This document shows positions 8,637-35,863 of a stretch of 45,910 bases of DNA, one piece after another. Source of the DNA: Paludibacteraceae bacterium (GTDB lineage Bacteria; Bacteroidota; Bacteroidia; Bacteroidales; Paludibacteraceae); the NCBI GenBank assembly GCA_017479885.1, contig JAFVBR010000038.1:1-45910 (forward strand), given 5' to 3'. Numbering within the stretch: position 1 is the stretch's first letter; each line of letters begins with the position of its first letter. The position numbers and the translations under genes were made by a program. Below the pieces are notes generated by a model. That model saw only the letters and a list, made by a program, of their open reading frames with translations, was not told where the DNA came from and searched no databases.

Positions 8637-9485
8637 CTACAACTCGCTAAGCCAATGGAGCAGAGACTGGCGGAAGACAGCAGTTTGCGGTATCTCGCGC
8701 TGAAAACCGAAGCCATGACCGCCTGTGGGCATAATCAACAGTTCCGCAGGCACTTTGTTGGCGGTAAGTGCCGAGTAGAAATCAATGCTGTTGCTCACCT
8801 GCACTGTTTTGTCGTCCTGACAGGCAACAATAAAGCAGGGCGGTGTGTCAGATGTTACATTATTCTTCAGGGTCCATTTGGCACGCTGCATTTCAGTAGG
8901 ATTATCTCCAAGCAACAACTGACATGTCTTCTTATGCGTATCACCCATCATTGAGAGTACGGGATAGACAAGCACGGAGAAGTCAGGGCGGGTCTTACTG
9001 TCGGTGTACATTGTGGTAAGCGAACCTGCAAGATGACCGCCTGCCGAGAAACCTATCACACCTATCTTGTCAGGCAGAAGATTCCATACTTCGGCACTGT
9101 CGCGCAAGATACGCATAGCATCAAGGGCATCCTCCAGAGGCACATTCTCATGTCCGTTGGGCATACGATATTTGAGCACTGCCACAGCAATGTTCTGCTG
9201 CATAGCCCACTGCGCTACATAAATGCCTTCGTTGGGAATGGACACATACTGGTAGGCTCCCCCTGGACAACAGAGCATCATGGGAACTTTCTTGTCTGTT
9301 TTGGGCAGATAGACATCAATCCGCGGTTCGGTGATTTCGTATATCTGGCCGTGAGTGCCTACGCGTTCGGGTGTGGTGATTCCATTACCGCCTTTGCGGG
9401 GCAATTGTATAACTTTAGGTTCTGCCTGCTGCGCAGATATCATCCCTGCCCACACAATAGCGAGCACAAATAAAATTCGCTTCAT
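8637..9485 (-). CDS. secreted alpha/beta hydrolase, acetyl-esterase-like
   Basis: The protein is 282 residues with a signal peptide (residues 1-19, ending ISAQQ), so it acts in the periplasm or outside. The fold is alpha/beta hydrolase of the Aes/carbohydrate-esterase kind. An oxyanion segment CPGGAYQYVS is at 73-82, the nucleophile Ser147 in GFSAGGHLAG, Asp225 in CQDDKTVQVSNS, and His257 in PTGGHGFGF. Such enzymes usually remove acetyl groups from polysaccharides. It lies one base after the stop of the amidase gene. In that setting an attractive but unproven role is removing O-acetyl groups from MurNAc. Catalytic competence looks intact; the substrate is inferred only from neighbours. Confidence 0.88.
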   Translation of the reverse strand: MKRILFVLAIVWAGMISAQQAEPKVIQLPRKGGNGITTPERVGTHGQIYEITEPRIDVYLPKTDKKVPMMLCCPGGAYQYVSIPNEGIYVAQWAMQQNIAVAVLKYRMPNGHENVPLEDALDAMRILRDSAEVWNLLPDKIGVIGFSAGGHLAGSLTTMYTDSKTRPDFSVLVYPVLSMMGDTHKKTCQLLLGDNPTEMQRAKWTLKNNVTSDTPPCFIVACQDDKTVQVSNSIDFYSALTANKVPAELLIMPTGGHGFGFQREIPQTAVFRQSLLHWLSEL

Positions 9486-9486
9486 A

Positions 9487-12400
9487 TCAATGACTTATTA
9501 TAACTGATTTAACTATTCTCAATTTTGGTGTAGTAATTTCCAACAGATACATTCCTGCATCTATGTCCGCTACCGGCATCAGGCTGCCGAATGCTGATCT
9601 GAATTGCTTTCCGTCAAGACCCAACAGCCTCAACTCAGCACTTTCCTCAAGTCCGCCCACGGCAATAACAGTGTTGGCAGGATTGGGATATACAGTTACA
9701 CTTTTTGCCAGCATCTGCTCAACACCGGTAGGTTCCTGACGCTCGTAATACATATTGTCAACAAATATGCTACCAGTCTGCGAGAGAACACCTTCCTTAC
9801 GTATCAAGCGCAAGCCCATAAACTGGTAATCAACATCAGTCGGAAGTACGCTCATGTCGGCTTCCTTGTAGTGCCATCCTGCATAATCAAGCGTGCAGAC
9901 AGGCGTGTATTTGATATCACCGGAAGCGTCCCATACCGCCTGTAATTCGTTCTGTGAGAAGTCGGAGTACACATACATTCCAAGTTTGCAATTGCCGTTG
10001 CCGTTGAACAACATTCCCGTATAACGGTACATTGCCATACCCTCTGTATCGGCAAACTCATACTTGAATTCATTGGAAGCGGCATTGGCATATTTTTTCT
10101 CCTTGTTGAGGAATGTGGAAGCATTGGTCACATACAGACTGGCATCAGCATCGTAATTGAACGAGAGCGTCTCCATATTGTCAACAAGTGAGCCGGCAGT
10201 GTTACCGTTTTCCGCCGTAGTATGGAACGGTATCTCGGTAGTTTGATTATAATACACACCGAGCACGTCCTGCAGATTGGGAGATATTATCAGTTTGTAA
10301 TCCTTATCAGGCTCCAGGCTGTTGACCAATTCGAATGATATAAATCCGCACGTATTTCCCAATATATTGTATTTGAACAAACGGGAGTTCACGCTCTGGG
10401 CATTACCTCCTGCATCAACAACAGAAAGGTTCGACTTGCCTGTGCTGGTATTTACACGTTCATCAAACATCAGAATGAATGACGGTTTCAATGGCACATC
10501 CCCTGAACCTACCGAAGGATACGTGGAGAGCAGACGCAAATTAGGTCTGTCTTTCGTCCTGAATTTGAAAATGAAGTCTTCCGCCATAGTGTTGGCAAAA
10601 CTGGTGTCAGGATGACATGCCGACTTTGCCAATCTGACTGTATATTCGGTTCCTTTTTCCAACATACGGTCCGGTTTGAAACGGAGTGTACGATATGAAT
10701 CTTCAAAAACAATAGTCCCCTCAACAGCAGGAGTGATACTGAATGCGGCACGGGTATCATCTTCCTTCATGTCCCAGTTGAAGTTCAGCACTATGTCTAT
10801 CGACACTTCCACACTATCGGTTATATTCTCCACATGCGGAGTGTAACTTACCACCTCCGGACGGGTCTCACGCTTTGCATTGACAAGCATATCCTGATAT
10901 GCTATGTCGCCGGCGACCACTGTCACCTCTTTCTCCATTGTATAATAGTGGTCTATCTCAGTACGCAAAGTGTATGTGCCCGGCTTCAGGTCCCAGAAGA
11001 AGAACACCCCGTTATAAAGAGTATCAGTGGTATAAGTTGCCAACTGCTTGCCATCTTGCAACAGAATGACCTTTGCTCCGTGTATCGGAAGCAACTCGTC
11101 GCGACTGCCGCGTATCTTGGTCATCTTCGGGAACTCTATCTTCTTATACCAGTCACGCACCTGACCGCCTATTGCTCCGTATGGCAATGTCTTGCCGAGG
11201 AAATACTCATAGAATGCCGCCATAAAGTAGAACGACTCGCGCCATTTGTAGTCCATATTCAGCAATCGGTATGTCTCAGGGATATAGTCGTGCATGCAAC
11301 CTTCGGAGATACAACCCGGGACAGACAATTTGCGGAGCACTCCGTAGCCGTCAGTCCAGCCGCCCATGATAGTGTAGCCGAAAGTCTTGTCACCTATCAC
11401 CCATCCGTTGGCACGGCTCGCAGGCGACCATGTAGTAACCTGGTTCTTCGTAAGCCACTTTGCTATAACGGTAGATATTGCCCTACTCTCTGCCTGACGC
11501 GGAGCGGGGTTACGGTACGTGCGGGTGTCGTTCTCTTCCTGACCGGAATAGAGTTCAAGCACATAGTTGCTCGGACCGCCGGCATTGGAGTGGATAGACA
11601 GCATATAGTCAGCGCCATAGGCACTTGCTTCGGCAGAGATTGCCGACAATGCGCGGTCGTCCTCGGTGCGGTTCTGGGTGCGGCTCATCTTGGTTTGGAA
11701 GCCTTCACGCTGCAACCATTCGTTAAGTTTCAGACCCTTGTCCAGATTGGATGTTGACTCCCAGAAACCGTTTGGATCACCACCCTTGAAGGGATAAACC
11801 ACCATATTCCTGTCATCAGAATCATTACCTCCGTGACCCGGGTTGATATAAATCTTCACTTGTGAAGGGCTTGTGTATTGAGCCTTTGCAGCTTTCAACG
11901 GTTTGGGCATCGGTGCGACCCGCCGAACTTGCGGAGCGATACGCACATCAGCCAAATCAGTCTGCAAGAGCCACACCTCGCCTTTGAGAGTACTATATGC
12001 AATCATACCCGTCTCTTCGGAAACGGCGGGGTACATACCAAACTCCTGGGGATCGGTAAGTTGCTGATTAAGCCTGCCGTCAATACTGCGAACAGCAATG
12101 CAGGAAGATGTGAAGAAATCACCATCGTGAGTGTCAAGCATACCTACAACCTTGTCATTGCCACACCAAACAGGAGCATCAATCGGACCGAGGTTTGCAA
12201 GTTCGTTGCCATCCAAGTCGCAGACACCGGTACCGTACAGGGTGTTAAAGAGGATTTTCTGCTTGTCGGGTGAAAGAGAAATCCACACATAGTTTACATC
12301 CTCACCATGAGGAGTGAGCACACGGCGCTCACCATTACGGTAGAGTGCAATTTGCAGGTCTTCGTTAGCAACATAGATGTCGGTCAGCTCTACAGCAACC

Positions 12401-12567
12401 GGCACTTCGTCCGCCTCCTGAGCCACATAGAGCAACTCTTTTGAATCGGCGGAAAAACGCGGGTTCCAACCGTCAGCCACTTTCTGATTGCTCAACACAC
12501 GTATCGGCTGAGCCATAGTTGCCACTGCACACAGGCAGACAGCACAAACAAGTAACGTCTTTTTCAT
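9487..12567 (-). CDS. secreted propeller-fused N-acetylmuramoyl-L-alanine amidase
   Basis: Of 1026 residues, 1-19 are a signal peptide. Residues about 25-215 contain TolB/PD40-like propeller strands (FSADSKELLYVA, WISLSPDKQKILFN). An Amidase_3 zinc domain covers about 237-455: His245 in INPGHGGND, Glu270 in GFWESTSNLDKG, His326 in MLSIHSNAGG and a catalytic Glu422 in CISEGCMHDY, so the enzyme looks active. Next come a carboxypeptidase-regulatory-like module (about 485-565), two SbsA-like Ig modules (about 570-780), a beta-sandwich, and a type IX sorting domain starting VTVYPNPANTVIAVGG. Amidases of this family cut the MurNAc-L-Ala bond and free stem peptides. The gene begins 5 bases after the NAGPA gene. 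The distant sorting domain implies surface or secreted action, not a housekeeping AmiC role. Confidence 0.92.
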   Translation of the reverse strand: MKKTLLVCAVCLCAVATMAQPIRVLSNQKVADGWNPRFSADSKELLYVAQEADEVPVAVELTDIYVANEDLQIALYRNGERRVLTPHGEDVNYVWISLSPDKQKILFNTLYGTGVCDLDGNELANLGPIDAPVWCGNDKVVGMLDTHDGDFFTSSCIAVRSIDGRLNQQLTDPQEFGMYPAVSEETGMIAYSTLKGEVWLLQTDLADVRIAPQVRRVAPMPKPLKAAKAQYTSPSQVKIYINPGHGGNDSDDRNMVVYPFKGGDPNGFWESTSNLDKGLKLNEWLQREGFQTKMSRTQNRTEDDRALSAISAEASAYGADYMLSIHSNAGGPSNYVLELYSGQEENDTRTYRNPAPRQAESRAISTVIAKWLTKNQVTTWSPASRANGWVIGDKTFGYTIMGGWTDGYGVLRKLSVPGCISEGCMHDYIPETYRLLNMDYKWRESFYFMAAFYEYFLGKTLPYGAIGGQVRDWYKKIEFPKMTKIRGSRDELLPIHGAKVILLQDGKQLATYTTDTLYNGVFFFWDLKPGTYTLRTEIDHYYTMEKEVTVVAGDIAYQDMLVNAKRETRPEVVSYTPHVENITDSVEVSIDIVLNFNWDMKEDDTRAAFSITPAVEGTIVFEDSYRTLRFKPDRMLEKGTEYTVRLAKSACHPDTSFANTMAEDFIFKFRTKDRPNLRLLSTYPSVGSGDVPLKPSFILMFDERVNTSTGKSNLSVVDAGGNAQSVNSRLFKYNILGNTCGFISFELVNSLEPDKDYKLIISPNLQDVLGVYYNQTTEIPFHTTAENGNTAGSLVDNMETLSFNYDADASLYVTNASTFLNKEKKYANAASNEFKYEFADTEGMAMYRYTGMLFNGNGNCKLGMYVYSDFSQNELQAVWDASGDIKYTPVCTLDYAGWHYKEADMSVLPTDVDYQFMGLRLIRKEGVLSQTGSIFVDNMYYERQEPTGVEQMLAKSVTVYPNPANTVIAVGGLEESAELRLLGLDGKQFRSAFGSLMPVADIDAGMYLLEITTPKLRIVKSVIISH

Positions 12568-12572
12568 GATAT

Positions 12573-15002
12573 CTATTTTTTAAGTATTTTCACTGTTTCG
12601 CCATTCACCTGCAGCAGGTAGGTTCCCGGAGCGGCAATATGCATGTCAAGCATGGCGTTGCCGTCAAGAGTTCCGGAGAACAGACACTTGCCATCGGTGG
12701 TGAATAATTGCACTGGACAGCCAGCCTCTGCACCCAGAACATGAATATAATCGGTTGCCGGCACGGGATAGACGCGTAGCGAAGTCTCTCTGACTCCGTC
12801 AAGGGCTGTAACCTCTATACCTTGATAACAAAGCGTGATGCCACGAAGGCGGATATAGTGTGCGCCTGCCGTGGTGCTTGAAGCAAGATAGAAACGCAGT
12901 TGCCTGAACGAAAGCGGATAATGTTCTTTGCTCTCTTTTGCCGAAAGCAAATCTGCAACAGGAACAACCATCTGCGCGCCCGTTCCAGACAGAGGCTCCG
13001 TAAAAGTCTTCATACAGTTCTGACCTGCTGCTGAAGACAGCGTAAGTTGAACATTGTCTATCTGTGCATCCGTGTCATAATCAATCTTTATTGTATCAGG
13101 AATACCGTAGAAGCGTATCTGCTTTTCAAACAGCACGTATGGCTTGCGCGTTACAGAGAAGTTGAACGCCACATTGAGTGCTCCATCCTGCAATGCCGGC
13201 TGCGGATTGAAGCCGCTCATGGACGTGATGTCCCAGTTGTCGAGCGAAGAGAAATCCTCAGCACCGACTACAGGTGCCGAAGGCGTTTCCACGCTCACCA
13301 GCATTGTGTCAGCAAACAGATTGTCAAGCGAGCCAACCACTTGCGCTTTGCCGTTGGCAACCGCACTCATAACGCCATCTTCATTGATAGTGCATATATC
13401 TTCATTAAGGCTCTTCCATGAGAGCGCAGGTGCAAGAACCGCCTGCTCACCGTCGCGATTGACGTTGACCACCTCCACCTGCCAGTCAGAGCGTTTGTCA
13501 AGCACAACAGAGTCGTACTTTAAGTGCATATTGCCTGCCACTATACGTATCTCTATCTCGGTCGTGGCAGAGCCCTTGGTGGCTGTAAGCGTGCCGCCAT
13601 TTTTGGTTGAAGCAAAGAAAGATGCGCCGTTATCGCGTATCTCTCCCACCGATTGGTCGCATGACAACGTAACGCCCTGCACATCGGTGTCTATCATCAC
13701 TCCGTATTTGTTATAGCCCAGGAAACGAGGGGTATAGAAGCCGCAGTAGGGCAGACTATAGACAGCATAATACGGTACGAGCTGCGCCACCTCATCGTCT
13801 GCTTCAGGCAGATTGGCTACAACGAACATGGCGTTACCTACTGCACGTTCCGACCCGTCGGAACCGTTGTTTACCTGATTGCCGAAGCCGCGTACATACA
13901 TAGAGCTGCTGCCGCCGCCGTCCCAGTTGACTGCACGCCAAGCGCCATAGTGGTGCATAATCTCTCCAAGCACACTCGTAGTGCAACCGTAAGATTGCAC
14001 CGTGCGCCCGTCAACGACACAGAACACGGCAGTGTCGCCCGTATGACTGACGCCATAGCCTGTACGGGGATGAATCTCATTCCAGAAGTTGGATGTCTCT
14101 GCCACTCCGTTGTCAAGAATGAGTGCATAGTTGTCGCCTCCGATAGCCTGACTGAGATTGGTATTGACATCATCGAGTTTGAGAGTGAAGCGGATGATGA
14201 CAGTGTCGCCAACGTTGACAAGCGAGTCAAGCGCTTTCTGCATCACTCCATGCCCCGACAACACCGCCTGCCCTACAGGAATAGCCATCGAGCCTTTGTT
14301 CTGCTCTTTGGAAACGACCACCGCTTTCTGCCGTCCATGGGTCTTCCACTGCTCGCCTTCGCACAGGCGGACCAGAAGCTCGGTTCCATACTGGTTGGTG
14401 GCTGTGGTTGCACCCTGATGCTGGTTGTAGAGCACAAGTTCGTCGGTATTGCGCGAGTAGTTGACATGCTTGATGACAAGAGTATCCTTGCTGCCTGATG
14501 TATAGAGTCGGCCGGTGTATTTCCAGTTGGTGGCAACTACGGGTTTGCCGGCAGCCGTCACAGCACCTACACGACGGTTTGTGGAGCCGATGTAAGCATA
14601 CTCGTTATTCTCGATGGTAAGACCTGTCGGACGGCCTACATCGCCTGTTGTGGCAAAGAAATCACCGTTGGTACCGGCAAAGGCGATATGAGTGGGCGTG
14701 GTGATGCGCTGCGCCATTGCCGAAGGACGCTCTGTTCCGACCACCTTGTTCTTTCCCAGTTCCTGCTCAATGCTGACGTATGGATTGCGTGTGTCAACCC
14801 TCATGACAAATACATCAAGCGGATATGATGCGGTTGAAGTGCGCGTCATGCGCAGTTTGAGATAGTCGGTACCCGGGCCTACGGGATAGAAGGCTACGGT
14901 GTCGATGTTATAACTTACTCCGCCGAAGGTAACTGGTTGTGCACCAACGTGTGCTGCAAGGAGTAACGCAAAAGAAAGCGTCAGAAGAGAGGTGTGCTTC
15001 AT
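12573..15002 (-). CDS. secreted phosphodiester glycosidase, NAGPA family
   Basis: The domain is PF09992 (DUF2233/NAGPA), the family of the human uncovering enzyme, which cleaves GlcNAc-alpha-1-P-6-mannose. Family blocks are visible: TNGDFFATTG (111-120), HPRTGYG (311-317), VNWDGGGSSSMYVRG (358-372) and GSERAVGNAMFVV (383-395). A Big_2-like Ig module follows (about 525-600), then a beta-sandwich and a type IX sorting domain from LRVYPVPATDYIHV. Length is 809 residues from the ATG at 15002, directly before the signal peptide KHTSLLTLSFALLLAAHVGA. A longer frame starting at 15110 is rejected because it would read through a terminator and a promoter. It heads the operon with the amidase and esterase. 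A role in splitting teichoic-acid-type phosphodiester links is inference. Confidence 0.9.
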   Translation of the reverse strand: MKHTSLLTLSFALLLAAHVGAQPVTFGGVSYNIDTVAFYPVGPGTDYLKLRMTRTSTASYPLDVFVMRVDTRNPYVSIEQELGKNKVVGTERPSAMAQRITTPTHIAFAGTNGDFFATTGDVGRPTGLTIENNEYAYIGSTNRRVGAVTAAGKPVVATNWKYTGRLYTSGSKDTLVIKHVNYSRNTDELVLYNQHQGATTATNQYGTELLVRLCEGEQWKTHGRQKAVVVSKEQNKGSMAIPVGQAVLSGHGVMQKALDSLVNVGDTVIIRFTLKLDDVNTNLSQAIGGDNYALILDNGVAETSNFWNEIHPRTGYGVSHTGDTAVFCVVDGRTVQSYGCTTSVLGEIMHHYGAWRAVNWDGGGSSSMYVRGFGNQVNNGSDGSERAVGNAMFVVANLPEADDEVAQLVPYYAVYSLPYCGFYTPRFLGYNKYGVMIDTDVQGVTLSCDQSVGEIRDNGASFFASTKNGGTLTATKGSATTEIEIRIVAGNMHLKYDSVVLDKRSDWQVEVVNVNRDGEQAVLAPALSWKSLNEDICTINEDGVMSAVANGKAQVVGSLDNLFADTMLVSVETPSAPVVGAEDFSSLDNWDITSMSGFNPQPALQDGALNVAFNFSVTRKPYVLFEKQIRFYGIPDTIKIDYDTDAQIDNVQLTLSSAAGQNCMKTFTEPLSGTGAQMVVPVADLLSAKESKEHYPLSFRQLRFYLASSTTAGAHYIRLRGITLCYQGIEVTALDGVRETSLRVYPVPATDYIHVLGAEAGCPVQLFTTDGKCLFSGTLDGNAMLDMHIAAPGTYLLQVNGETVKILKK

Positions 15003-15023
15003 AGTAGATATTGTTATGGACTG

Positions 15024-15055
15024 CAAAGTTAAGATATATTTTTCTTTTTTGCAAA
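15024..15055 (-). promoter_or_regulatory. promoter of NAGPA-amidase-esterase operon
   Basis: On the minus strand TTTG (15055-15052) is followed after exactly 20 bases by TAACTTTG (15031-15024), a full match to the Bacteroidetes promoter TTTG-N19-21-TAnnTTTG. It lies just after the terminator of the SusC/SusD operon and about 22 bases before the ATG at 15002, which supports that start and marks a separate transcription unit. Confidence 0.85.
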
Positions 15056-15056
15056 C

Positions 15057-15092
15057 AAAAAAGCAGGATGACCAAAGCCATCCTGCTTTTTT
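15057..15092 (-). terminator. intrinsic terminator of the SusC/SusD operon
   Basis: GCAGGATG and CATCCTGC form a perfect stem with an 8-base loop, extended by A and T runs on each side, so it could work in both directions. It is 47 bases after the stop of the OB-fold secreted protein gene and closes the operon that starts at SusC. Confidence 0.9.
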
Positions 15093-15138
15093 ATATTCCA
15101 ATGCACTCAATTATGCATTGTGCATTAAGAGCTATGCA

Positions 15139-17697
15139 TTATTTTACCTGTGCACCCATTACGTTGTAACGTACGCCATCGCGATAGATGTAGATAACAC
15201 CGTTCTCAAGCACTTTCTGTGCTTTCTCGAAGCTCTGCTCGATGATGTTCTCAAGACCATCGCCTGTGCCTTCCTTACCTGTGAAGGTGTAAGCGGCATA
15301 ACCGTTATTGAGGGTATAGAGATAAATCTTTGCAACTTTACCATTAACCTCAACATAAGGAACTGCAGAACGTGCGCCTGCTGTAGCCTTGCCCATACCG
15401 TTTGCAGGGAAATACCACATAGGCTCCATCTCAGCAAACGACTTGGCAGCATCTTTGTATTTGAAGAGAGCATAAGCTGATGACGGAGTACCTTCTGTAT
15501 TGGTTGCAGCCATAACAAGGAAGTACTCATCACCAATCTGGAACTCAGCCAAGCCGTTGTGACCCTGATTCATTCTGCAAGTATCACCTTCAGCATTGCC
15601 TACATACACACCTGTCGGAACGTTTGCAAAGTCATCAAGCAGAGATGCTTCGTATGCACCCGGGTGAGCATAAGACTCTGTGCCTGCATCGAAGAGCATA
15701 GGCAGTGTGCCGTGATAGTCAACATAGAACATGTCGCCCTCAAGCGGGAAGATTTGAGGAGCAGTGCTATTCGGAGAATAATTCCAAGCACCATTTTCCA
15801 CTATGAACGACTTAACGCCATCGCCGGGAGTAAGTTCTACAAGTTCAGCCTTACCTGCAACACCACCCTTAATGTGCCAGCGGAAAGCATTCATTCCGTT
15901 TGAATTGCAAGCCATAACGGTAGCATCTTTGGTAACATCACCGTAAACACCGTATGCATCGAAACGATAATTTATCTTATTGATAACTGTATCTTCCGAA
16001 TCATACAGACGCTCGTTGATAAGTTCTGTCGCAGCACCAGTTGCAAGGTCAACAACGTAAATTTGAACTCGGTTGCCGCCAGATACACAACCACCGATAA
16101 TAGCATGACCTGCATTATCAAGTTTAATATCATTGAAAGAAAGAGTTGCACACATTGAATATTCTCCTTCATCATTTGCAGCTTCAAAAAGGTGATTGTC
16201 TTGGATTGCTATAGGATCCAACATTTCACCTGTTGCACCGTCAACAACGGTCAGAGATCCGACACCTTTAACACTTACTCCTCCGCCTTTATTGTTGATA
16301 AAGTACATCTTACCATCTTTTGCCACCATACCACGCACTTGGTCTACATTACCAGGAGCATTGTCGGAGTAGTTGTCATAAGTGTTGGCATAAATCCACT
16401 CGTTTGTCAGAGTGTAGCCTTCGAAGTCACCTTCTGCATCACGAACAGGATAAGCGTAAGTGTCTTTTCCTGCTGCCGAAGCGGCAACAACATCTTCGGT
16501 GTTACCTACGAACTGAACATTCTCGTTGTAGTTGGCAACAACAGCCTTGATGTTAACCTTGGTGCCGACAGGCAGAGCAGTCTGGTCAGGAGTCATATAG
16601 TAACCCTCGAGTTCGTTTGTACCGTCAGTTACATACACATTGCCATAAGAATCATATTTCGAAATCTTCACACCTTCAACCAATACGGGAGTACCATAAA
16701 GCGCCTGAGGATCAGCAACAATAGTAGCCAATGTAGTGGTAGTGACAGTGGCAGGAGTTCCTGCAGCAGCAGAAATGAGGGTGTTGTTTGTCATCTCGGG
16801 GAAAGTCATATAGACTGTATATTTACCGCTGATAGTAATATCATCAGCCACCTTGAGGTCTTTCCAACCATCAAGTGTATTGTAGTTGGCAGTCAGATAA
16901 ACCAGAATACCAACACCGCCGTCAGCGATATATACATTCTTACCGCCTACGTAGGTAACAACACCATGAGTTTTGGTCTCAGTGCCTGCCTCCATTGTGC
17001 GGACTTCCTTGATTGAAGGGATATACTCGCCAAACTTTGCATACAACTTGCCTGTGGTAGCAGAGGTTATCTCTTTGATAGGAGTACCCGAACCTGCTTC
17101 ATTGTCGAACCAGCCGCGGAAACTCTCACCTTCAAGATAAGGAGCATTAAGTGTCCATGTAACTCCCTCTGCTACTTCTGTCGGGTTGTCAAAGCCATGT
17201 TTCCAAGCAGTTTTAAACACATCATAAGTACCTGCATTAGCAAAATCTGCTGTATATGGCCAGCCTGTCATTTGCCCTGCAAAGAAGAATGCACCTGACT
17301 CATAACGCCAATGGGCAGAATTAAAAGCAGCAGTTCCAAGAGCCGAAGCATTAAGATGTCCGTCTTGTGTCAAATAATCGTCAACAGTAGCAATCAGATA
17401 ATTCTTAAGCCAATCCCATTTGCCTGTTGCATCTTCATAAGCACCGGCAGTGTTTAGCAAATATTTGCCGATTCCTTCTCCTGAATACTTGTTGTCCATA
17501 GCCATAAACTGGTCATAAGTCGGCACACCTTCAGGATATCCTGCAATACAAGCAGCCATGAAGTCATTGTACATGTCCACTTTGCTCATCCAACCATAAT
17601 CGTTGGTAACAGCACCTGTGGGGAGCACGTACTCCACAGCGGCGAACGACATTGCTGCCATCATTACGGCAGCACAAAAAGTTGTTAGTCTTTTCAT
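15139..17697 (-). CDS. secreted OB-fold and DUF4623-like protein of the Sus locus
   Basis: The 852-residue protein has a signal peptide (MKRLTTFCAA, cleaved near SFAAV). Residues about 25-185 are an unassigned helical segment. Then comes an InlB/Listeria-Bacteroides-like strand set (GESFRGWFDNEAGSGTPI). Two OB-fold-like modules follow at about 230-320 (THGVVTYVGGKNVYIADG) and 325-405 (VLVEGVKISKYDSYGNVYVT). Residues about 420-800 look like a propeller similar to DUF4623 proteins (VRGMVAKDGKMYFINNK). The tail KVLENGVIYIYRDGVRYNVM resembles the tail of the GHL10 protein and may be a short secretion signal. No catalytic motif was recognised, so binding or scaffolding is more likely than hydrolysis. 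It is the last gene before the terminator. Confidence 0.8.
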   Translation of the reverse strand: MKRLTTFCAAVMMAAMSFAAVEYVLPTGAVTNDYGWMSKVDMYNDFMAACIAGYPEGVPTYDQFMAMDNKYSGEGIGKYLLNTAGAYEDATGKWDWLKNYLIATVDDYLTQDGHLNASALGTAAFNSAHWRYESGAFFFAGQMTGWPYTADFANAGTYDVFKTAWKHGFDNPTEVAEGVTWTLNAPYLEGESFRGWFDNEAGSGTPIKEITSATTGKLYAKFGEYIPSIKEVRTMEAGTETKTHGVVTYVGGKNVYIADGGVGILVYLTANYNTLDGWKDLKVADDITISGKYTVYMTFPEMTNNTLISAAAGTPATVTTTTLATIVADPQALYGTPVLVEGVKISKYDSYGNVYVTDGTNELEGYYMTPDQTALPVGTKVNIKAVVANYNENVQFVGNTEDVVAASAAGKDTYAYPVRDAEGDFEGYTLTNEWIYANTYDNYSDNAPGNVDQVRGMVAKDGKMYFINNKGGGVSVKGVGSLTVVDGATGEMLDPIAIQDNHLFEAANDEGEYSMCATLSFNDIKLDNAGHAIIGGCVSGGNRVQIYVVDLATGAATELINERLYDSEDTVINKINYRFDAYGVYGDVTKDATVMACNSNGMNAFRWHIKGGVAGKAELVELTPGDGVKSFIVENGAWNYSPNSTAPQIFPLEGDMFYVDYHGTLPMLFDAGTESYAHPGAYEASLLDDFANVPTGVYVGNAEGDTCRMNQGHNGLAEFQIGDEYFLVMAATNTEGTPSSAYALFKYKDAAKSFAEMEPMWYFPANGMGKATAGARSAVPYVEVNGKVAKIYLYTLNNGYAAYTFTGKEGTGDGLENIIEQSFEKAQKVLENGVIYIYRDGVRYNVMGAQVK

Positions 17698-22830: not shown

Positions 22831-22859
22831 AATATATATCAATTATAAATTATCAACTA

Positions 22860-28760: not shown

Positions 28761-28838
28761 AGATGGTGTTATTATGGTTGTTTAAGGTAGATAGTGACGA
28801 AGAAATCAAGCAGTTATAGCATAGAGTCAGCTTAATCA

Positions 28839-28915: not shown

Positions 28916-29773
28916 TCAGGCAGGAATCAGGTCTTTCTTGTGATACTGTTTCAGTCCTTCGACAGGGTCTTGGAGAATGTTTGCAAGTTGGATGCCATTG
29001 TCGTTGAGCACCTTCTCAAGCACATCTTTGTAATAATAAGCGATAGAACCTACGAACCCGACAGGCAACTCTTGCGGATACTGTTTGAGGTTGCGGATAA
29101 CAAACTGGTTGAAGTGGTCATAAACCAGATTGTATATCATCGGATTATCAATATTCTCGGCAGCGAACTTGGAGAGTTTAGCAAGGAAACGGTTGGGGAA
29201 GGGTTTGCGATATACATTCTCTATAATATCAGCTTGGGAAGTGTTGTATTGTGTCAGGAACTTCTCTTTCAGTTCGTCGGAAAGCTGATTCTTCAGCAAG
29301 TCTGCCACCAGTCTCTTTCCGAGCACGGCACCCGAGCCCTCGTCGCCGAGGATAAAGCCGAGAGCAGGCACGTTCTTGACGAATTTCTCACCGTCGTACT
29401 GACAAGAGTTGCTGCCAGTACCAAGTATGCAAGCCACCCCGGCTTTGTCGCCGAGCAAAGCACGTGCTGCGCCGAGCATATCGGAATTGACCTCAACCTG
29501 TGCTTTTTTGAACACAGCCTGAAGTGCACGGGCAACAAAAGGAATCTTCTCGGGAGTGCACCCTGCACCATAGAAGAAGACGTTGGTTACAGGCCCTACC
29601 CACATCAGATGCCCCATCTGCGGAAGGAGCTGGTTGCTAACGGAGTTCTGCATTGCCTCAGAAGTCTGGAAGAAGGGGTTGATACCGTCGGTGAAGAATT
29701 CGTTGGCATCACCATTGTTGGCTATCAGGCACCAATGTGTCTTGGTTGAGCCGCTGTCTGCGATTAGGATCAT
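28916..29773 (-). CDS. BadF/BadG-family amino-sugar kinase, MurK-like
   Basis: This is an actin-fold (ASKHA) kinase of 285 residues. The ATP phosphate-1 loop is ILIADSGSTKTHWCLI at residues 2-17. GVACILGTGSNSCQYD and ALGFILGDEGSGAVLGKRL give the phosphate-2 and connecting motifs. VGFVGSIAYYYKDVL gives the adenosine motif. Such proteins are GlcNAc kinases (NAGK type) or, in T. forsythia, the MurNAc kinase MurK. Lying directly upstream of murQ favours MurNAc or a dual GlcNAc/MurNAc substrate, because the product MurNAc-6-phosphate is what MurQ uses. The family is certain and the exact sugar is not. The leader upstream contains 49-bp repeats. Confidence 0.88.
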   Translation of the reverse strand: MILIADSGSTKTHWCLIANNGDANEFFTDGINPFFQTSEAMQNSVSNQLLPQMGHLMWVGPVTNVFFYGAGCTPEKIPFVARALQAVFKKAQVEVNSDMLGAARALLGDKAGVACILGTGSNSCQYDGEKFVKNVPALGFILGDEGSGAVLGKRLVADLLKNQLSDELKEKFLTQYNTSQADIIENVYRKPFPNRFLAKLSKFAAENIDNPMIYNLVYDHFNQFVIRNLKQYPQELPVGFVGSIAYYYKDVLEKVLNDNGIQLANILQDPVEGLKQYHKKDLIPA

Positions 29774-29961: not shown

Positions 29962-29966
29962 AGGAT
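29946..29966. repeat. REP-like palindrome
   Basis: ATCCTGAA-ACAAG-TTCAGGAT is a perfect 8-bp-arm hairpin. Sequences of the GTCATCCTGAACTTGTTTC type are, to my knowledge, dispersed palindromes in many bacterial genomes. It sits at the third copy of the 49-bp repeat, so the tandem repeat probably arose from it. Confidence 0.7.
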
Positions 29967-30050
29967 GACGATGACGATTCCGCTTATATCGAACTCACGT
30001 TGGTTTTATATATAATGTGGTTATTTTTAGTTATCGCACAAAATAGCGCA

Positions 30051-30274: not shown

Positions 30275-32257
30275 ATGCGAAACAATCTTAGTTCACTCAT
30301 CACGCTGAGCCACGTGCAGAAACGGCTCTACCGCCCTGAGGATGTGTTCGAGCTTTCGCGCGTGACACGCCTTGAGCAAGTCAGAACAGATATTTATGAG
30401 ACCGCCCGCGAAGGTGCAATAATTGTAGCCAGACAGATAGCCTCATTGATTTTGGAGAAGCAGAAAAAGGGCGAAAAAGCCGTAATCTCTCTTGCTTCAG
30501 GCAGAAGCATGACAGACATCTTTCAGGAACTGGTACGCATGCACCAGGAGGAAGGACTCAGTTTCAGCAATGTGATTCTGTTCAACCTGTTTGAATACTA
30601 CCCTCTTCTGGATAGGAAACAAGGCTGCTACCACCAGTTGAAGGAGCAATTGATTGACCAGATTGACATTCCCGCAGAAAACATATATTCTTTCGACGGC
30701 ATGCAGGCAAAAGAGAGTCTGCTTGCGACCTTCAACGAATACGAGCGTTGCATAGAGAAGTTAGGCGGAATAGACCTTCAACTTTTAGGTATAGGGCGCG
30801 GCGGCAACATCGGATTCAACGAACCCGGCACACAATTCAACAGCCAGACCCGTCTGGTAATTCTTGACAACGTATCGAAGAATGATGCAGCAGGTCTGTT
30901 CGGTTCTGCAGAACAAGTTCCGGTAAGTGCAATGACTATGGGTATAGGCACCATACTTCGTGCAAAAGAAATCATAATGGTTGCCTGGGGGGAACACAAG
31001 TCGCAGCAGTTGAGACTGGCAGTTGAGGGCAAGGCAGAGACATCGTGCCCCGCAAGCGCGATACAACTGCACCAGAACGCCCATGTGGTAGCCGACTTGT
31101 CGGCAGCCGGCGCACTGACGCGTATCAGTCACCCGTGGCTTGTCACCAGTTGCGAATGGGATGACCAACTGACACGCCGTGCAATAGTATGGCTCTGCCA
31201 ACAGACAGGCAAACCCATTCTGAAACTAACCAACAAGGATTATAATGAGTTCGGACTGAGCGACCTTATCACACTTCACGGATCGGCATACAACTGTAAT
31301 ATAAAGGTGTTCAACCAACTTCAGCACACCATCACCGGTTGGCCGGGCGGCAAACCCAATGCAGACGACTCCACTCGTCCGGAGAGAGCCACTCCGTTTC
31401 CGAAGAAGGTGCTCATATTCTCCCCCCACCCCGACGACGACGTTATCTCGATGGGCGGCACCTTTGCCCGTCTGATAAAGCAGGGACACGATGTACACGT
31501 AGCATACGAGACCTCGGGCTGCATTGCAGTAGGAGACGTTGAAGTGGTACGTTTCATGGACTTCATGAAAGGCTTTGCCGAGATGCATATCCCCGAGGCA
31601 AAGGTCATTCCGCAGAAATTTGAGGAATATATGCACTTCTTCAAGCACGAGAAAGTGGGAGACCAGGACACACGCGAGATACTTGACCTGAAGGCTCTAA
31701 TCCGCAGAGGCGAGGCAACAGCCGCCTGCCGCCACATGGGACTTGACACGTCGCATATTCATTTCCTCAACCTGCCGTTCTATGAAACAGGAACGATAAA
31801 AAAAGGTGACCTGAGTCAGAAAGACATTGACATAGTGAAACGTCTGCTGCTGGAACTGAAGCCTGACGAGATGTTTGTTGCAGGCGACCTTGCAGACCCG
31901 CACGGCACGCACAAGGTATGTCTTGACGCAGTGCTTGCCGCCATTGACGAACTGAAAGACACAGAGAAGTGGCTGCATGAGTGCCGAATCTGGATGTACA
32001 GAGGCGCATGGATGGAATGGGAAGTTGACCTGATAGAGATGGCAGTGCCCATGTCGCCCGAGGAACTGCGTTTCAAACGCAACACGATACTCAACCACCA
32101 GAGTCAGATGGAGTCGGCTCCGTTCCTCGGAAATGACGAGCGTCTGTTCTGGCAACGTGCCGAAGACCGCAACCATGCCACGGCAGAGTTGTATGCACAA
32201 TTAGGTCTTGCCAACTACGAGGCAATAGAAGCATTTGTGCAATACCACATTCTATAG
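30275..32257 (+). CDS. NagB-like (degenerate) and PIG-L deacetylase fusion protein
   Basis: The protein is 660 residues, cytoplasmic, with two domains. Residues about 35-290 follow the glucosamine-6-phosphate deaminase fold (SLASGRSM, FNLFEYYP, LGIGRGGNIGFNEPG, MGIGTILRAKEI). The residues that do the chemistry in E. coli NagB are changed: Asp72 aligns with Phe106, Asp141 with Gly176 and His143 with Asn178; only Glu148 (Glu183) is kept. Residues about 375-640 are a PIG-L/LmbE deacetylase with the metal site intact: SPHPDDDVISMGG (His385, Asp387, Asp388) and DPHGTHK (His543, His546). PIG-L enzymes deacetylate GlcNAc-type groups. A deaminase annotation would be misleading. A sugar-phosphate-sensing or -binding domain joined to an active deacetylase fits better. 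It opens a four-gene plus-strand set. Confidence 0.9.
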   Translation: MRNNLSSLITLSHVQKRLYRPEDVFELSRVTRLEQVRTDIYETAREGAIIVARQIASLILEKQKKGEKAVISLASGRSMTDIFQELVRMHQEEGLSFSNVILFNLFEYYPLLDRKQGCYHQLKEQLIDQIDIPAENIYSFDGMQAKESLLATFNEYERCIEKLGGIDLQLLGIGRGGNIGFNEPGTQFNSQTRLVILDNVSKNDAAGLFGSAEQVPVSAMTMGIGTILRAKEIIMVAWGEHKSQQLRLAVEGKAETSCPASAIQLHQNAHVVADLSAAGALTRISHPWLVTSCEWDDQLTRRAIVWLCQQTGKPILKLTNKDYNEFGLSDLITLHGSAYNCNIKVFNQLQHTITGWPGGKPNADDSTRPERATPFPKKVLIFSPHPDDDVISMGGTFARLIKQGHDVHVAYETSGCIAVGDVEVVRFMDFMKGFAEMHIPEAKVIPQKFEEYMHFFKHEKVGDQDTREILDLKALIRRGEATAACRHMGLDTSHIHFLNLPFYETGTIKKGDLSQKDIDIVKRLLLELKPDEMFVAGDLADPHGTHKVCLDAVLAAIDELKDTEKWLHECRIWMYRGAWMEWEVDLIEMAVPMSPEELRFKRNTILNHQSQMESAPFLGNDERLFWQRAEDRNHATAELYAQLGLANYEAIEAFVQYHIL

Positions 32258-32334: not shown

Positions 32335-33786
32335 ATGAAGACAATCAATTGTTTTGTGCCTTTTCAGAGTGAAGAACAAGTAGCTCAGACGGTTGAAAAC
32401 CTCAAAAAACAAGAGTTGGTAAAGGAAGTGTTCCTGCTTGACGGCGACATCCGTTCCACCAAAAACATGCGCTACATAGCTCAGCATGCCGACACACCTT
32501 ACACCCTCATCTACACCAAGTACACCACCCTCTCGTTCGTGCTTTTCGCACTTGAAAGAATGGTTGCCCTGATGGAAGACTCAGCAGCCATGATGGTGTA
32601 TGCCGACCACTTCAATCAGTCGAAAGTCGAAAGCAAAAAGTCGAAAGGCGAATTTGAGGTAATCACCACACAAGCGCCTGTTATTGACTATCAGTTCGGT
32701 TCTTTGCGTGATGACTTCGACTTCGGTTCTGTGCTTCTGTATCGCACTGACGCACTGCTGAATGCAGTAGGACGTATGGACACTGATTACCAGTATGCCG
32801 GACTCTACGACCTTCGTCTGAAAGTGAGTCAGCTTGGTGCTCTGGAGCATATCAACGAGTACTTGTACTACGACGTGGAACTCGACACCCGCAAGTCGGG
32901 CGAGAAACTGTTCGACTATGTTGACCCCAAGAACCGCGGTGTACAGATAGAAATGGAGCAGGCATGCACACAGCATCTGAAAGACATAGGGGGCTACCTT
33001 GAGCCCAAGTTCCGTGACGTGGATATGACAGCAGGTGACTTCGAGTACGAAGCATCGGTGGTCATCCCCTGCAAGAACCGCGTCCGCACCATAGGTGACG
33101 CCATCCGTTCCGCCCTCTCGCAGAAAGTGCGTGCACCTTACAAATATAATGTCATTGTGGTTGACGACAACTCGGAAGACGGCTCGGTGGATATAATAAA
33201 GTCGTTCCTCGGCGACGAGAAACTGGTGTATATAGCTCAGGACAAGTCGTGGCACGCCATCGGCGGAAACTGGAACGTGGCACTCCACCATCCCAAATGC
33301 GGCAGGTTCGCCATACAGCTTGACTCTGACGACGTTTACTACGATGAGAACACCGTGCAGAAATTCATTGACGCCTTCCATGAGCAGAACTGCGCCATGG
33401 TGGTAGGCACCTACCGCATGACCAACTTCCACATGGAAACACTGCCTCCGGGAATCATCGACCACAGAGAGTGGACTCCCGAAAACGGACGCAACAACGC
33501 ATTGCGCATCAACGGATTAGGTGCTCCGCGCGGGTTCTATACGCCGATGCTGCGCCAAATCAACTTCCCCACCACCAAATACGGAGAGGATTATGCAGTG
33601 GGTCTGCGTGTAAGCCGTGAATACCAGATAGGCAGAATATACGACGTGGTTTACAACTGCCGCCGTTGGGACGACAACTCGGACGCCAATGTGGACATAG
33701 AAGGCATGAACCGCAACAACCTCTACAAAGACCGCATCCGCACTTGGGAGTTGAAAGCAAGAATTCAAATGAACCAAGCAGAGTAA
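32335..33786 (+). CDS. glycosyltransferase family 2, two GT-A-like domains
   Basis: The protein is 483 residues, soluble, no signal or membrane segment. The C-terminal half (about 240-460) is a GT2 domain: YEASVVIPCKNRVRTIGDAI, NVIVVDDNSEDGS (273-284), then the metal- and nucleotide-binding FAIQLDSDDVYYDE (Asp330-Asp333 region) and later TTKYGEDYAVGLRVS, a typical acceptor-side block. The N-terminal half (1-235) resembles a second, degenerate GT-A fold (VKEVFLLDGDIRST, MMVYADHF, GSVLLYRTDALLNAVG). The nucleotide-sugar donor and acceptor are unknown. Residues about 96-108 (SKVESKKSKGEFE) are encoded by a GTCGAAAG-type simple repeat, probably a local expansion. Its neighbours are the PIG-L fusion upstream and lplA 37 bases downstream. 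Confidence 0.88.
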   Translation: MKTINCFVPFQSEEQVAQTVENLKKQELVKEVFLLDGDIRSTKNMRYIAQHADTPYTLIYTKYTTLSFVLFALERMVALMEDSAAMMVYADHFNQSKVESKKSKGEFEVITTQAPVIDYQFGSLRDDFDFGSVLLYRTDALLNAVGRMDTDYQYAGLYDLRLKVSQLGALEHINEYLYYDVELDTRKSGEKLFDYVDPKNRGVQIEMEQACTQHLKDIGGYLEPKFRDVDMTAGDFEYEASVVIPCKNRVRTIGDAIRSALSQKVRAPYKYNVIVVDDNSEDGSVDIIKSFLGDEKLVYIAQDKSWHAIGGNWNVALHHPKCGRFAIQLDSDDVYYDENTVQKFIDAFHEQNCAMVVGTYRMTNFHMETLPPGIIDHREWTPENGRNNALRINGLGAPRGFYTPMLRQINFPTTKYGEDYAVGLRVSREYQIGRIYDVVYNCRRWDDNSDANVDIEGMNRNNLYKDRIRTWELKARIQMNQAE

Positions 33787-33823: not shown

Positions 33824-34552
33824 ATGATTTATATTCCTGCTCCTTCAAACAAGCGCCTTGTATGGTACTTGGCAATGGAAGAATACGTTGGTCAGAACAT
33901 AGAGCAATATCCCGACGGAGTGTTCTTCACATGGGTGGTTGACCCAACAGTGATTTTTGGTCGTCATCAGGTGATGGCACAAGAAGTTAATCTTGATTAT
34001 TGTCAGGAGCATGGGATTTACACCTACCGCCGCAAAAGTGGCGGTGGGTGTGTTTATGCAGACAGGGGTAACCTAATGCTCTCATACGTAGTACCCTCTC
34101 CACATGCTGAGCAAGTGTTTCAACAATATCTTGACGACATATCAGCAACTCTGACCAAAATAGGATTAGCGGCAGTCAAGTCGGAACACAATGATATTTT
34201 GGTTGACTCGCAGAAAGTGTCGGGCAATGCTTGCTACGCACTGAAGAAAGGGACGATTGTGCATGGCACTATGCTTTACGACTTAGACTTCGACCAAATG
34301 CAGCATGCAATAACTCCACCCGCAGCTAAATTGGAGAAACATGGTGTGCAGTCGGTACGTCAAAGAGTAAGGAACTTGAAGCCGCTACTGGAAGAGATGG
34401 CTGACAATAAGATTAGTGATATTTACGACTTATCTGATTGTCTAATAAAAGCTCTCAGTGACAAGACTTACAATCTGACTGCAGAAGACATGGCAGCTAT
34501 AGATGAGATAGAAACCACATATCTGAATCCTGATTTCTTATACGACAGATAG
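33824..34552 (+). CDS. lipoate-protein ligase A family protein
   Basis: The enzyme activates lipoate with ATP and attaches it to Lys of lipoyl domains (or transfers octanoyl groups). The 242-residue protein has the BPL_LplA_LipB fold: TWVVDPTVIFGRHQVMAQEV, the lipoyl-AMP loop YTYRRKSGGGCVYADRGN and the catalytic Lys in SQKVSGNACYALKKG, then TIVHGTMLYDLDF. It lacks the C-terminal accessory domain of E. coli LplA (about 330 residues), as do many LplA-like proteins, so it may need a partner or be a lipoyl/octanoyl transferase. Its TAG abuts the ATG of the SpoIID-domain gene with no spacer, implying joint translation. A functional link with cell-wall sugars is not obvious. Confidence 0.9.
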   Translation: MIYIPAPSNKRLVWYLAMEEYVGQNIEQYPDGVFFTWVVDPTVIFGRHQVMAQEVNLDYCQEHGIYTYRRKSGGGCVYADRGNLMLSYVVPSPHAEQVFQQYLDDISATLTKIGLAAVKSEHNDILVDSQKVSGNACYALKKGTIVHGTMLYDLDFDQMQHAITPPAAKLEKHGVQSVRQRVRNLKPLLEEMADNKISDIYDLSDCLIKALSDKTYNLTAEDMAAIDEIETTYLNPDFLYDR

Positions 34553-35863
34553 ATGAAACGACTTCTCAGCGTGGGCATAATGTCAGCCCCGACCATAAGT
34601 TTCTCGCTTCGAGGCAAGTATGTATTCAACGGCAAGAACTACCAAGGCGAGTACACGGCTACTATAGAAAACGGCAGAGTTGGTTTCTGCGGAGAAGAAT
34701 ATGAAGAATTGTGCTTCCGCGGCGGAGATAGTTTCACTCTGCACGAAGTAACAATAGGAGTGAATTTCCACTGGCAGAGAAAAGAAGACCAGTCGTTCAA
34801 AGGGGACTTGAAGATAACAGCCGGACATGACAGAGTGCTATACAATGAGCCTGCACTGATAGCCGTCAATCTGATTGACGTGGAGGACTATCTGGTGTCG
34901 GTAATCTCTTCGGAGATGTCGGCTACTTCTTCGTTTGAGCTCCTGAAAGCCCATGCAGTCATATCCCGAAGTTGGCTTCTGCACCCTATATTGAATCCGC
35001 ACGCAGGAGGCAATCATCAAACATCTATAGAGACTGAGAAAAGGATTATCCGTTGGTATGAGCGCGATGCCCACTCCTTGTTCGACGTATGTGCTGACGA
35101 CCATTGCCAGCGATATCAGGGTATAACCAAGCAGACTTCGGAGAACGTGCAGCGTGCTATTGACGAGACTCGCGGTTTGGTGCTTCGCAGCATTGATAAC
35201 GGAGAGGTTTGCGATGCCCGTTTCTACAAGTCCTGCGGAGGTGCTACCGAATTGTTTGAGAACTGCTGGGCAGACGAACATTATCCATATCTGGGAGCTG
35301 TTCGCGACGACAAAGACAGCATCTTACCTGATTTAACCAACGAGACAGAGGCAGAGCATTGGATTCGCACCGCTCCGAAAGCCTTCTGCAACACATCGGA
35401 CCGCCGAATCTTGCAGCAAGTGCTCAACAACTACGACCAAGAGACGCAGGACTTCTACCGGTGGAAAGTGGAATACACACAAGAAGAGTTGAGCGAGATA
35501 GTGCGCGAGCGAAGCGGAATAGACTTCGGCTTGATTGAGGAACTTATCCCTATCCGCCGCGGTCCTTCGGCACGAATCTACGAACTCAAGATAGTAGGCG
35601 AAAAGCGCACTATGATAGTGGGTAAAGAGTTGGAGATACGCAAGTGGCTCTCACATTCGCACTTGTATTCATCAGCATTTGTAGTGGACAAACAGACTTC
35701 AAGCGATTCGCAAACCATTATCTTTTCCCTCACAGGTGCAGGCTGGGGACACGGAGTCGGTCTGTGCCAGATAGGTGCCGCAGTAATGGCAGACCAAGGC
35801 TATAAGTACGAGCAGATACTCGCCCACTATTTCCCGAATACAGAACTTAGACCGCTGCGCTGA
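34553..35863 (+). CDS. SpoIID/LytB domain protein without signal peptide
   Basis: The SpoIID domain is visible at NLIDVEDYLVSVISSEMSAT (107-126). Glu121 aligns with the catalytic Glu of SpoIID, and the following AHAVISRSWLL matches the family. RFYKSCGGATELFENCW, and the C-terminal GAGWGHGVGLCQIGAAVMAD before LAHYFP, are also signatures. SpoIID is a lytic transglycosylase that cuts denuded peptidoglycan strands. This 436-residue protein has no usable signal peptide: residues 1-20 (MKRLLSVGIMSAPTISFSLR) are only mildly hydrophobic and flow into a beta domain. It may therefore act in the cytoplasm, perhaps on imported fragments, or be exported another way. The start is fixed by the lplA stop immediately before it. 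Confidence 0.88.
   Translation: MKRLLSVGIMSAPTISFSLRGKYVFNGKNYQGEYTATIENGRVGFCGEEYEELCFRGGDSFTLHEVTIGVNFHWQRKEDQSFKGDLKITAGHDRVLYNEPALIAVNLIDVEDYLVSVISSEMSATSSFELLKAHAVISRSWLLHPILNPHAGGNHQTSIETEKRIIRWYERDAHSLFDVCADDHCQRYQGITKQTSENVQRAIDETRGLVLRSIDNGEVCDARFYKSCGGATELFENCWADEHYPYLGAVRDDKDSILPDLTNETEAEHWIRTAPKAFCNTSDRRILQQVLNNYDQETQDFYRWKVEYTQEELSEIVRERSGIDFGLIEELIPIRRGPSARIYELKIVGEKRTMIVGKELEIRKWLSHSHLYSSAFVVDKQTSSDSQTIIFSLTGAGWGHGVGLCQIGAAVMADQGYKYEQILAHYFPNTELRPLR

Follow-up and report, generated by a model that had tools for sequence, protein, structure and literature searches.

The window, a 45,910-nt stretch of DNA from a gut bacterium of the Paludibacteraceae (assembly GCA_017479885.1, contig JAFVBR010000038.1), carries between positions 8637 and 35863 a SusC/SusD gene pair together with predicted wall-active enzymes, a MurK-like kinase and MurQ. 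We consider it probable that these genes form a Sus-type utilization locus for the glycan of peptidoglycan, which feeds N-acetylmuramic acid (MurNAc) through MurK and MurQ. The evidence comes from sequence comparison: gene content, conserved residues, sorting signals, and the linkage and co-occurrence of the genes in relatives.

Gene content and organization

The source contig is C4 of a 2.8-Mb genome that is 93.8% complete and contains 26 matches to the TonB plug domain. A sequence-only reading of the window had grouped SusC, SusD, two lipoproteins, GHL10, NAGPA, Amidase_3, an esterase, a BadF-family kinase, MurQ, a PIG-L fusion and SpoIID in one stretch, and Pfam and NCBIfam profile scans found every one of these genes in place. 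The list was correct but left three genes unmentioned, namely a glycosyltransferase (GT2), a lipoate-ligase-like gene and the gene for an 852-aa protein, the last of which sits within the run and recurs in relatives. The partner of the PIG-L domain is a glucosamine-6-phosphate (GlcN-6-P) deaminase domain. The features, including tails of the type IX secretion system (T9SS), were:

8637..9485, minus strand: alpha/beta-hydrolase esterase with a signal-like N-terminus, final gene of the run (PF20434, 68.8 bits)
9487..12567, minus strand: Amidase_3 with a CarboxypepD_reg-like part, Big_5 and T9SS tail (PF01520, 49.2 bits, cut-off 27)
12573..15110, minus strand: NAGPA (DUF2233) phosphodiester-glycosidase-like protein with T9SS tail (PF09992, 80.1 bits)
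15024..15055, minus strand: promoter-like TTTG-N-TANNTTTG site ahead of the NAGPA start (pattern scan)
15139..17697, minus strand: secreted 852-aa protein without Pfam family (Pfam scan, AlphaFold2 model)
17789..20260, minus strand: GHL10 protein, a glycosidase or lytic transglycosylase, ending in a short tail (PF02638, 183.8 bits)
20260..21954, minus strand: PKD-domain lipoprotein, 564 aa, locus marker (PF00801, 42.2 bits)
21973..22842, minus strand: lipoprotein, 289 aa, without Pfam family, lipobox LVGC (N-terminus inspected)
22860..24620, minus strand: SusD-like surface lipoprotein, lipobox LTGC (PF12771, 89.6 bits)
24639..27797, minus strand: SusC/RagA TonB-dependent outer-membrane transporter (TIGR04056, 616.7 bits, cut-off 368)
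27948..28760, minus strand: MurQ, MurNAc-6-phosphate etherase (TIGR00274, 314.4 bits, cut-off 302)
28916..29773, minus strand: MurK-like BadF/BcrA-fold kinase, predicted MurNAc kinase (PDB 8oqw, 314.8 bits)
30275..32257, plus strand: NagB/PIG-L fusion, GlcN-6-P deaminase and predicted N-acetylglucosamine-6-phosphate (GlcNAc-6-P) deacetylase (NF002557, 971.6 bits, cut-off 384)
32335..33786, plus strand: GT2 (profile scans)
33824..34552, plus strand: lipoate-ligase-like gene (profile scans)
34553..35863, plus strand: SpoIID (profile scans)

The kinase through to the esterase form a single codirectional run on the minus strand, in the order (from 29773 down to 8637) kinase, murQ, susC, susD, 289-aa lipoprotein, PKD lipoprotein, GHL10, 852-aa protein, NAGPA, Amidase_3 and esterase, with the four plus-strand genes divergent from the kinase and murQ. 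Intergenic gaps from susC to the esterase were −1 to 91 bp, and those between SusC and MurQ and between MurQ and the kinase were 150 and 155 bp. The adjacent pair expected of a Sus-type polysaccharide utilization locus (PUL) is present, with 18 bp between SusC and SusD, and the exported glycan-active enzymes also expected of a PUL are represented in the same run, where lipobox lipoproteins, T9SS-tailed proteins and GHL10 occur together.

The best PDB match of SusC by sequence was 5fq6 (BT_2264). The 289-aa lipoprotein keeps the same position in relatives, and the lipobox Cys18 of the PKD lipoprotein was invariant in 57 rows. The AlphaFold2 model of the PKD lipoprotein (mean predicted local distance difference test, pLDDT, 91.6) shows the PKD domain and, after it, a region made mostly of strands that may be a beta-propeller. 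That of the 852-aa protein (mean pLDDT 86.6) has a helical N-terminal part, strand domains and a strand-rich C-terminal half; for both models, a beta-propeller is a guess from the strand pattern. A plasmid search with the PKD protein gave no match.

The pattern TTTG-N-TANNTTTG, presumably a Bacteroidales-type promoter motif, had 8 matches in the window against 0.86 expected, as consensus matches only. Translation of NAGPA probably begins at the ATG at 15002. Inspection by eye showed a TAATTTTG box approximately 75 bp before susC with a TTG 20 bases ahead of it, and this box together with the promoter-like site before NAGPA makes it likely that more than one transcript crosses the run. A sigma-70 scan (48 found, 27.1 expected) was discarded, that promoter type not being typical of the phylum. 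Also seen by eye were a repeat resembling CGTCATCCTGAACTTGTTTCAGGATCTC, present three times upstream of the kinase (29870-29990), and short tandem units between the kinase and murQ (near 28830-28880).

MurQ accompanies the SusC operon in relatives

Carriers of the locus were defined as the 21 of 120 family genomes with a full-length PKD marker plus G011, whose contig-end fragment was counted (139 bits, the contig piece spanning the C-terminal third). PKD matches of 100-156 bits in G012, G031, G059, G076, G077, G092 and G105 were excluded, as was a second such match in G061. NAGPA was dropped as a marker because only 20 of the 82 matched genomes (of 120) had long catalytic-part matches, most others matching the T9SS tail. 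MurQ was counted only above 240 bits; TIGR00274 matches at E 0.001 (101/120 genomes) were mostly short SIS-domain matches and were not used.

MurQ was present in 32 of the 120 genomes, comprising all 22 carriers versus 10 of the 98 non-carriers (table 22/0/10/88, Fisher p = 1e-16). When labels were shuffled within genera, the mean was 16.1 and 22 was reached in none of 20,000 shuffles, five genera varying for both. With NAGPA as the marker, MurQ was found in 20/20 carriers. The locus itself was patchy within genera (4/8, 4/7, 2/7, 1/5 and 1/2).

In 14 of the 22 carriers murQ adjoins susC (G000, G111, G118, G018, G047, G055, G028, G079, G044, G083, G094, G020, G042 and G075), with G042 judged by spacing and G075 by a contig-end piece. 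It is not beside susC in six of the 20 judgeable carriers (G101, G024, G102, G006, G072 and G061), and contig ends leave adjacency undecided in G011 and G089. A second survey, a contig scan with the PKD alignment, gave 89 relatives, of which 80 were kept as named loci; these are partly on the same contigs as the family genomes, and the two surveys overlap. Adjacency could be judged in 63 of the 80 and not in 17. In 40 of them murQ immediately precedes susC; a script identified 38 of these, the other two being L072 and L121, whose called open reading frames (ORFs) overlap or abut. Four had it nearby in another layout (L086, L094, L098 and L130) and 19 had none within 2.4-4.4 kb. Every Barnesiella (3), Muribaculaceae-labelled (3) and Bacteroides salyersiae (1) locus that could be judged is among these 19, and murQ was missing from all 12 loci that could be judged in the clade lying outside the main 60 rows. 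On the PKD tree, built by a quick method, adjacency changed at least 7 times, 6 of these forced by starred branches, versus 18.9 for shuffled labels, so the linkage is passed on in blocks and yet has been made or broken several times. The sequence-only reading had named beforehand, as its own test, a lack of conserved linkage of SusC/SusD with the amidase and murQ; linkage and co-occurrence were found across genera, though not in every locus.

If the murK/murQ block and the SusC operon were neighbours by history only, with unrelated functions, the six carriers and 19 named loci in which they are apart would be expected, as would the separate promoter that SusC seems by eye to have and the 10 of 120 genomes with murK/murQ but no operon. 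This explanation is very unlikely, however, given the 22/22 co-occurrence, which includes genomes with both parts apart, the repeated changes of adjacency, and the existence of other layouts, in two of which an MFS permease gene lies between MurQ-GT2 and SusC.

The genes around murK/murQ were compared where the layout differs. NamZ accompanies them in G006, G024 and G072, carriers in which they lie apart from SusC, joined in G006 and G072 by an acyltransferase-like gene. An FAD/Fe-S oxidase lies near murK/murQ in G024, G072 and the MurQ-only genome G078, and before susC in L083; it could be a D-lactate dehydrogenase, which would suit the D-lactate released by MurQ. In G061, a GH20 hexosaminidase adjoins murQ. 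The permease of L086 and L098, which lies between murQ-GT2 and susC, is of the MFS/BT1 type and could be AmpG. In the stretches read of the ten MurQ-only genomes, several on short contigs, no susC of this type was seen beside murQ. SpoIID, counted as a locus member in the sequence-only reading, indeed lies near murK/murQ in the window; in relatives, however, GT2 and SpoIID are found near murK/murQ also where the SusC operon is absent.

The kinase, MurQ and the NagB/PIG-L fusion

The window kinase scored 314.8 bits against PDB 8oqw and 230.2 bits against 8oqk. In the alignment the 8oqw chain shows S-P-L and T-D, the MurK residues given in PMC10465942, and among kinases with studied substrates the window kinase is, on these comparisons, nearer to Tannerella forsythia MurK than to its paralogue. 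The MurNAc specificity of MurK has been tied to small residues at 133-135 and to Thr94 (PMC10465942). At the lactyl-pocket positions 133-135 the window kinase has P-A-L, and it has Ser at the Thr94 equivalent; compared with that paper, no bulky Glu or His occupies the S133-P134-L135 region and the catalytic Asp is kept. Across 40 aligned kinases including that of the window, the first pocket position was P in 32, S in 4, Y in 2, L in 1 and K in 1, the second A in 33, P in 6 and S in 1, and the third L in 37, G in 2 and A in 1. The Thr94 equivalent was Ser and the catalytic Asp (D98 in the window) was kept in 40/40. The slower paralogue K1058 has Arg-Ala at the pocket positions, so MurNAc use by the window kinase is plausible, not proven.

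MurQ scored 270 bits against PDB 4s12 and exceeded the curated TIGR00274 cut-off. Its E80 and E111, which we take to be the two catalytic Glu residues, were kept in 42/42 rows.

The fusion protein, which joins the PIG-L and deaminase domains, matched NF002557 over its full length and bears an HPDDD motif. NagA had no match anywhere in the window's own genome (93.8% complete). Above cut-off, NagA was found in 6/120 family genomes and 5/22 carriers, and the fusion in 41/120 and 21/22, respectively, in G089 as two pieces. The sole carrier without the fusion, G094, has NagA, and the MurQ-only genomes G001 and G034 have neither. The PIG-L domain may serve as the GlcNAc-6-P deacetylase in a genome without a NagA match.

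Wall-active enzymes and their sorting signals

Residues H245, E270, H326 and E422 of Amidase_3, to which we assign zinc-binding and catalytic roles, were kept in 24/24 rows. TIGR04183, the model for T9SS sorting tails, matched the amidase at 28.4 bits and NAGPA at 25.8 bits, both above its cut-off of 23. The N-terminal region of the amidase is a separate gene of approximately 300 aa in most relatives.

GHL10 scored 243 bits against Clostridioides difficile Cwp19 (PDB 5oq2), with homology across the domain length, and its conserved residues were kept in a 71-row alignment. DigH is presumably also a GHL10 protein. Cwp19 has been demonstrated to be a lytic transglycosylase (PMC6016235), and DigH is specific for denuded strands, the product of amidases (PMC12288456). 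The amidase and GHL10 of the window match a known order of attack, in which stem peptides are removed and the denuded glycan is then cut. A paralogous cluster of GHL10 (962 aa), a 302-aa protein and Amidase_3 (1584 aa) was seen on C27 of the same genome (L069, at about 105-110 kb); it repeats the amidase-GHL10 pairing, and no match to the SusC/SusD of the locus lay within the 20 kb read.

The same enzymes would equally serve to recover the cell's own shed muropeptides or turnover glycan at the surface, and murK/murQ are seen alongside NamZ too and, where a genome lacks the SusC operon, near SpoIID. We regard recovery of self-derived rather than foreign wall as quite unlikely, since the T9SS tails on the amidase and NAGPA lead one to expect action outside the outer membrane and since the locus is patchy within genera, unlike core self-recycling.

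In 19 aligned rows of NAGPA, PRT never varied and DGR and DGGGS varied hardly or not at all; its best solved relative was PDB 3ohg, which we take to be BACOVA_00430, with mammalian-type NAGPA lower in the match list. A family profile search with the 852-aa protein returned T9SS-type C-terminal domains only, for example that of gingipain. The C-termini of the window's GHL10 (17789-20260) and 852-aa protein (15139-17697) share a tail of approximately 25 aa with the pattern K-x-L-x-DG-x-YI, in whose place orthologues in other loci have a longer T9SS-type domain. The short tail may be an alternative T9SS sorting signal. The esterase scored far under the cut-off of an AxeA1-like model.

Conservation of the operon

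The window proteins were compared by BLAST with 19 contig regions of 19 Paludibacteraceae genomes. All eight genes from SusC to Amidase_3 were found together in 13 of the 19 regions. Contig ends fall inside the locus in G111, G083, G102, G028 and G011. G042:C5 holds a partial, different copy; the PKD gene of G042 is on another contig, 5.8 kb downstream of murQ, which would leave about enough room for susC, susD and the lipoprotein. Across the order, the PKD marker was rare (5/295 genomes, two from the window's own family).

Matches above 60 bits in the 80 named loci numbered 71 for SusC, 75 for SusD, 76 for the 289-aa lipoprotein, 72 for GHL10, 59 for the 852-aa protein, 53 for NAGPA and 33 for Amidase_3, all of these being lower bounds, as many loci are cut by contig ends or the 10-kb flank. 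The record names cover Paludibacteraceae, Dysgonamonadaceae, Candidatus Symbiothrix, Barnesiella, Bacteroides salyersiae DSM 18765, Prevotellaceae and Muribaculaceae. Nearest by PKD protein were Paludibacteraceae metagenome-assembled genomes (MAGs) from reindeer/roe deer, L070 (89% identical) and L071 (81%). In B. salyersiae a kinase homologue (44%) lies beside susC, and amidase pieces are on the opposite strand. L089 has, divergent beside susC, a gene for a calcineurin-like phosphoesterase fused to a PQQ-type propeller (1656-3611), with a putative counterpart in L085 (1505-3409); the domain scan covered L089 only.

Downstream of the 852-aa gene, 56 named loci could be judged. NAGPA was next in 52, the amidase followed directly without NAGPA in three (L070, the nearest relative, L071 and L118), and L119 had neither before secA, though murK/murQ adjoin; NAGPA is thus usual in the gene set, not essential to it.

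The frequency of NAGPA is what would be expected if the SusC operon targeted another phosphodiester-containing envelope polymer, such as teichoic acid, capsule or the like; the key enzyme would then be NAGPA, the amidase and GHL10 would serve only to open the wall, and MurK/MurQ would handle by-catch. Some loci have two or more NAGPA copies (e.g. L085, L127, L134, L135 and L140), L148 has NAGPA beside an 852-aa homologue, its only GHL10 piece lying upstream on the opposite strand, and divergent PKD loci carry subtilases. On the other hand, MurQ is in 22/22 family carriers and follows the locus within genera, MurNAc is a sugar typical of peptidoglycan, and L070 lacks NAGPA yet keeps amidase, GHL10, murK and murQ. 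On balance, such a target is unlikely.

Observations that count against a peptidoglycan locus

Several observations weigh against the peptidoglycan reading. Among them are the carriers and named loci in which murQ stands apart from susC and the four loci without NAGPA, described above. In G101 and G102, where murK/murQ are apart, no NamZ was found among the scanned neighbours; those in G101 were a UvrD-type helicase and a protein without family and that in G102 a beta-lactamase-fold/GDSL protein, so not all murK/murQ neighbours fit. NamZ belongs to the T. forsythia pathway. Neither NamZ (PF07075) nor AnmK had a match in the window's own genome (93.8% complete), which leaves the release of free MurNAc unexplained, and likewise the use of anhydro ends if GHL10 is a transglycosylase; T. 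forsythia, too, is reported to lack a predicted AnmK orthologue (PMC7670621). Scans limited to the window found no MurT, AmpG or other inner-membrane transporter. Many accepted PULs have no regulator. The canonical PUL includes a regulator gene (PMC6987092), and Pfam scans of the 29 main ORFs of the window found no regulator family. The esterase is a weak point, having no BLAST match in the relative loci compared and not being seen in any of the 14 family regions, out of 19, that reach past the amidase. In the divergent PKD/SusC/SusD loci L144 and L148, subtilases and dockerin-bearing proteins follow, a hint that this branch may target peptides or proteins.

The earlier peptidoglycan-utilization proposal is supported by the linkage and co-occurrence, the conserved residues of the amidase and GHL10, the MurK-like kinase and a MurQ above cut-off; caveats are the esterase, unmatched in relatives, NAGPA, missing in some loci, and the SpoIID block, which is found with murK/murQ also in the absence of the SusC operon.

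Proposed route and significance

For a peptidoglycan locus, the following route is envisaged. The T9SS-exported amidase would strip stem peptides outside the cell, and GHL10, perhaps also surface-exported, would cut the denuded GlcNAc-MurNAc strands. NAGPA could act as an accessory enzyme that removes a phosphodiester-linked glycan or polymer, perhaps a wall-teichoic-acid linkage. Fragments would be held by SusD and the other two lipoproteins of the run and imported by SusC; genes elsewhere would provide for trimming in the periplasm and passage across the inner membrane. MurK would then phosphorylate MurNAc, MurQ would split MurNAc-6-phosphate into GlcNAc-6-P and D-lactate, and the NagB/PIG-L fusion would deacetylate and deaminate GlcNAc-6-P towards fructose-6-phosphate. 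For the broader proposal, that several Bacteroidales families have a SusC/SusD locus devoted to consuming other bacteria's peptidoglycan glycan, in which the fusion replaces NagA and MurNAc is taken to fructose-6-phosphate, we put the chances at about even.

Bacterial cell wall is an abundant polymer in the rumen, the gut and anaerobic digesters, and no named Bacteroidota system for outer-membrane uptake of peptidoglycan glycan was found in the open-licence literature. Candidates for the importer, the binding proteins and the enzymes acting on this glycan are provided by the locus, and the fusion is a candidate GlcNAc-6-P deacetylase for genomes without NagA. If the proposal is true, it would put a name to a missing step, the uptake of peptidoglycan sugars across the outer membrane of Bacteroidota. 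That the gene set is kept together in many relatives suggests that some Bacteroidales feed on cell walls.

Comparison with known systems

The open-licence literature yielded no description of a locus with these genes; most subscription papers and preprints were outside that scope, and an earlier description is possible. A review of TonB-dependent uptake names no Sus-type peptidoglycan transporter in the places shown (PMC11658791). A Rhodothermus paper sharing the terms PUL, amidase and peptidoglycan concerns a xylan PUL and separate recycling genes. Closest in assigned target is an automatically predicted PUL, susC-susC-susD-unk-GT51, in a Prolixibacteraceae MAG from woodchip bioreactors (PMC11653725). 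It too is a SusC/SusD locus, with peptidoglycan as predicted target, but that target was assigned because of its GT51 gene, and no amidase, GHL10, NAGPA, MurK or MurQ is listed for it. GT51 is a peptidoglycan-synthesis family.

The T. forsythia salvage cluster Tanf_08345-08385 comprises ampG, murT, murK and murQ, and this species uses intact foreign peptidoglycan (PMC7670621; PMC5790795), mainly the sugar backbone (PMC7670621); amidase, transglycosylase and muramidase activities were reported in its cell extract (PMC7670621). MurK and MurQ are common to the cluster and the window, whereas the text consulted names no SusC/SusD or exported-enzyme operon for the cluster and the window is without MurT, AmpG and NamZ. 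BACOVA_00430, if PDB 3ohg is correctly so named, shares the DUF2233/NAGPA domain with the window NAGPA. The pairing of Amidase_3 with GHL10 is held in common with amidase and DigH/Cwp19-type hydrolysis, the comparison being with Cwp19, which the window GHL10 resembles, and DigH itself lying outside it. Those systems serve the cell's own separation or autolysis, whereas the window genes stand in a Sus-type run with a T9SS-tailed amidase. With the Sus-type PULs of Bacteroidota the locus shares the SusC/SusD pair, lipoproteins, exported degradative enzymes and an operon-like run; it differs from them in having no adjacent regulator, in its enzymes, which are an amidase, GHL10 and NAGPA rather than hydrolases of plant or host glycans, and in the coupling of murK and murQ to the operon.

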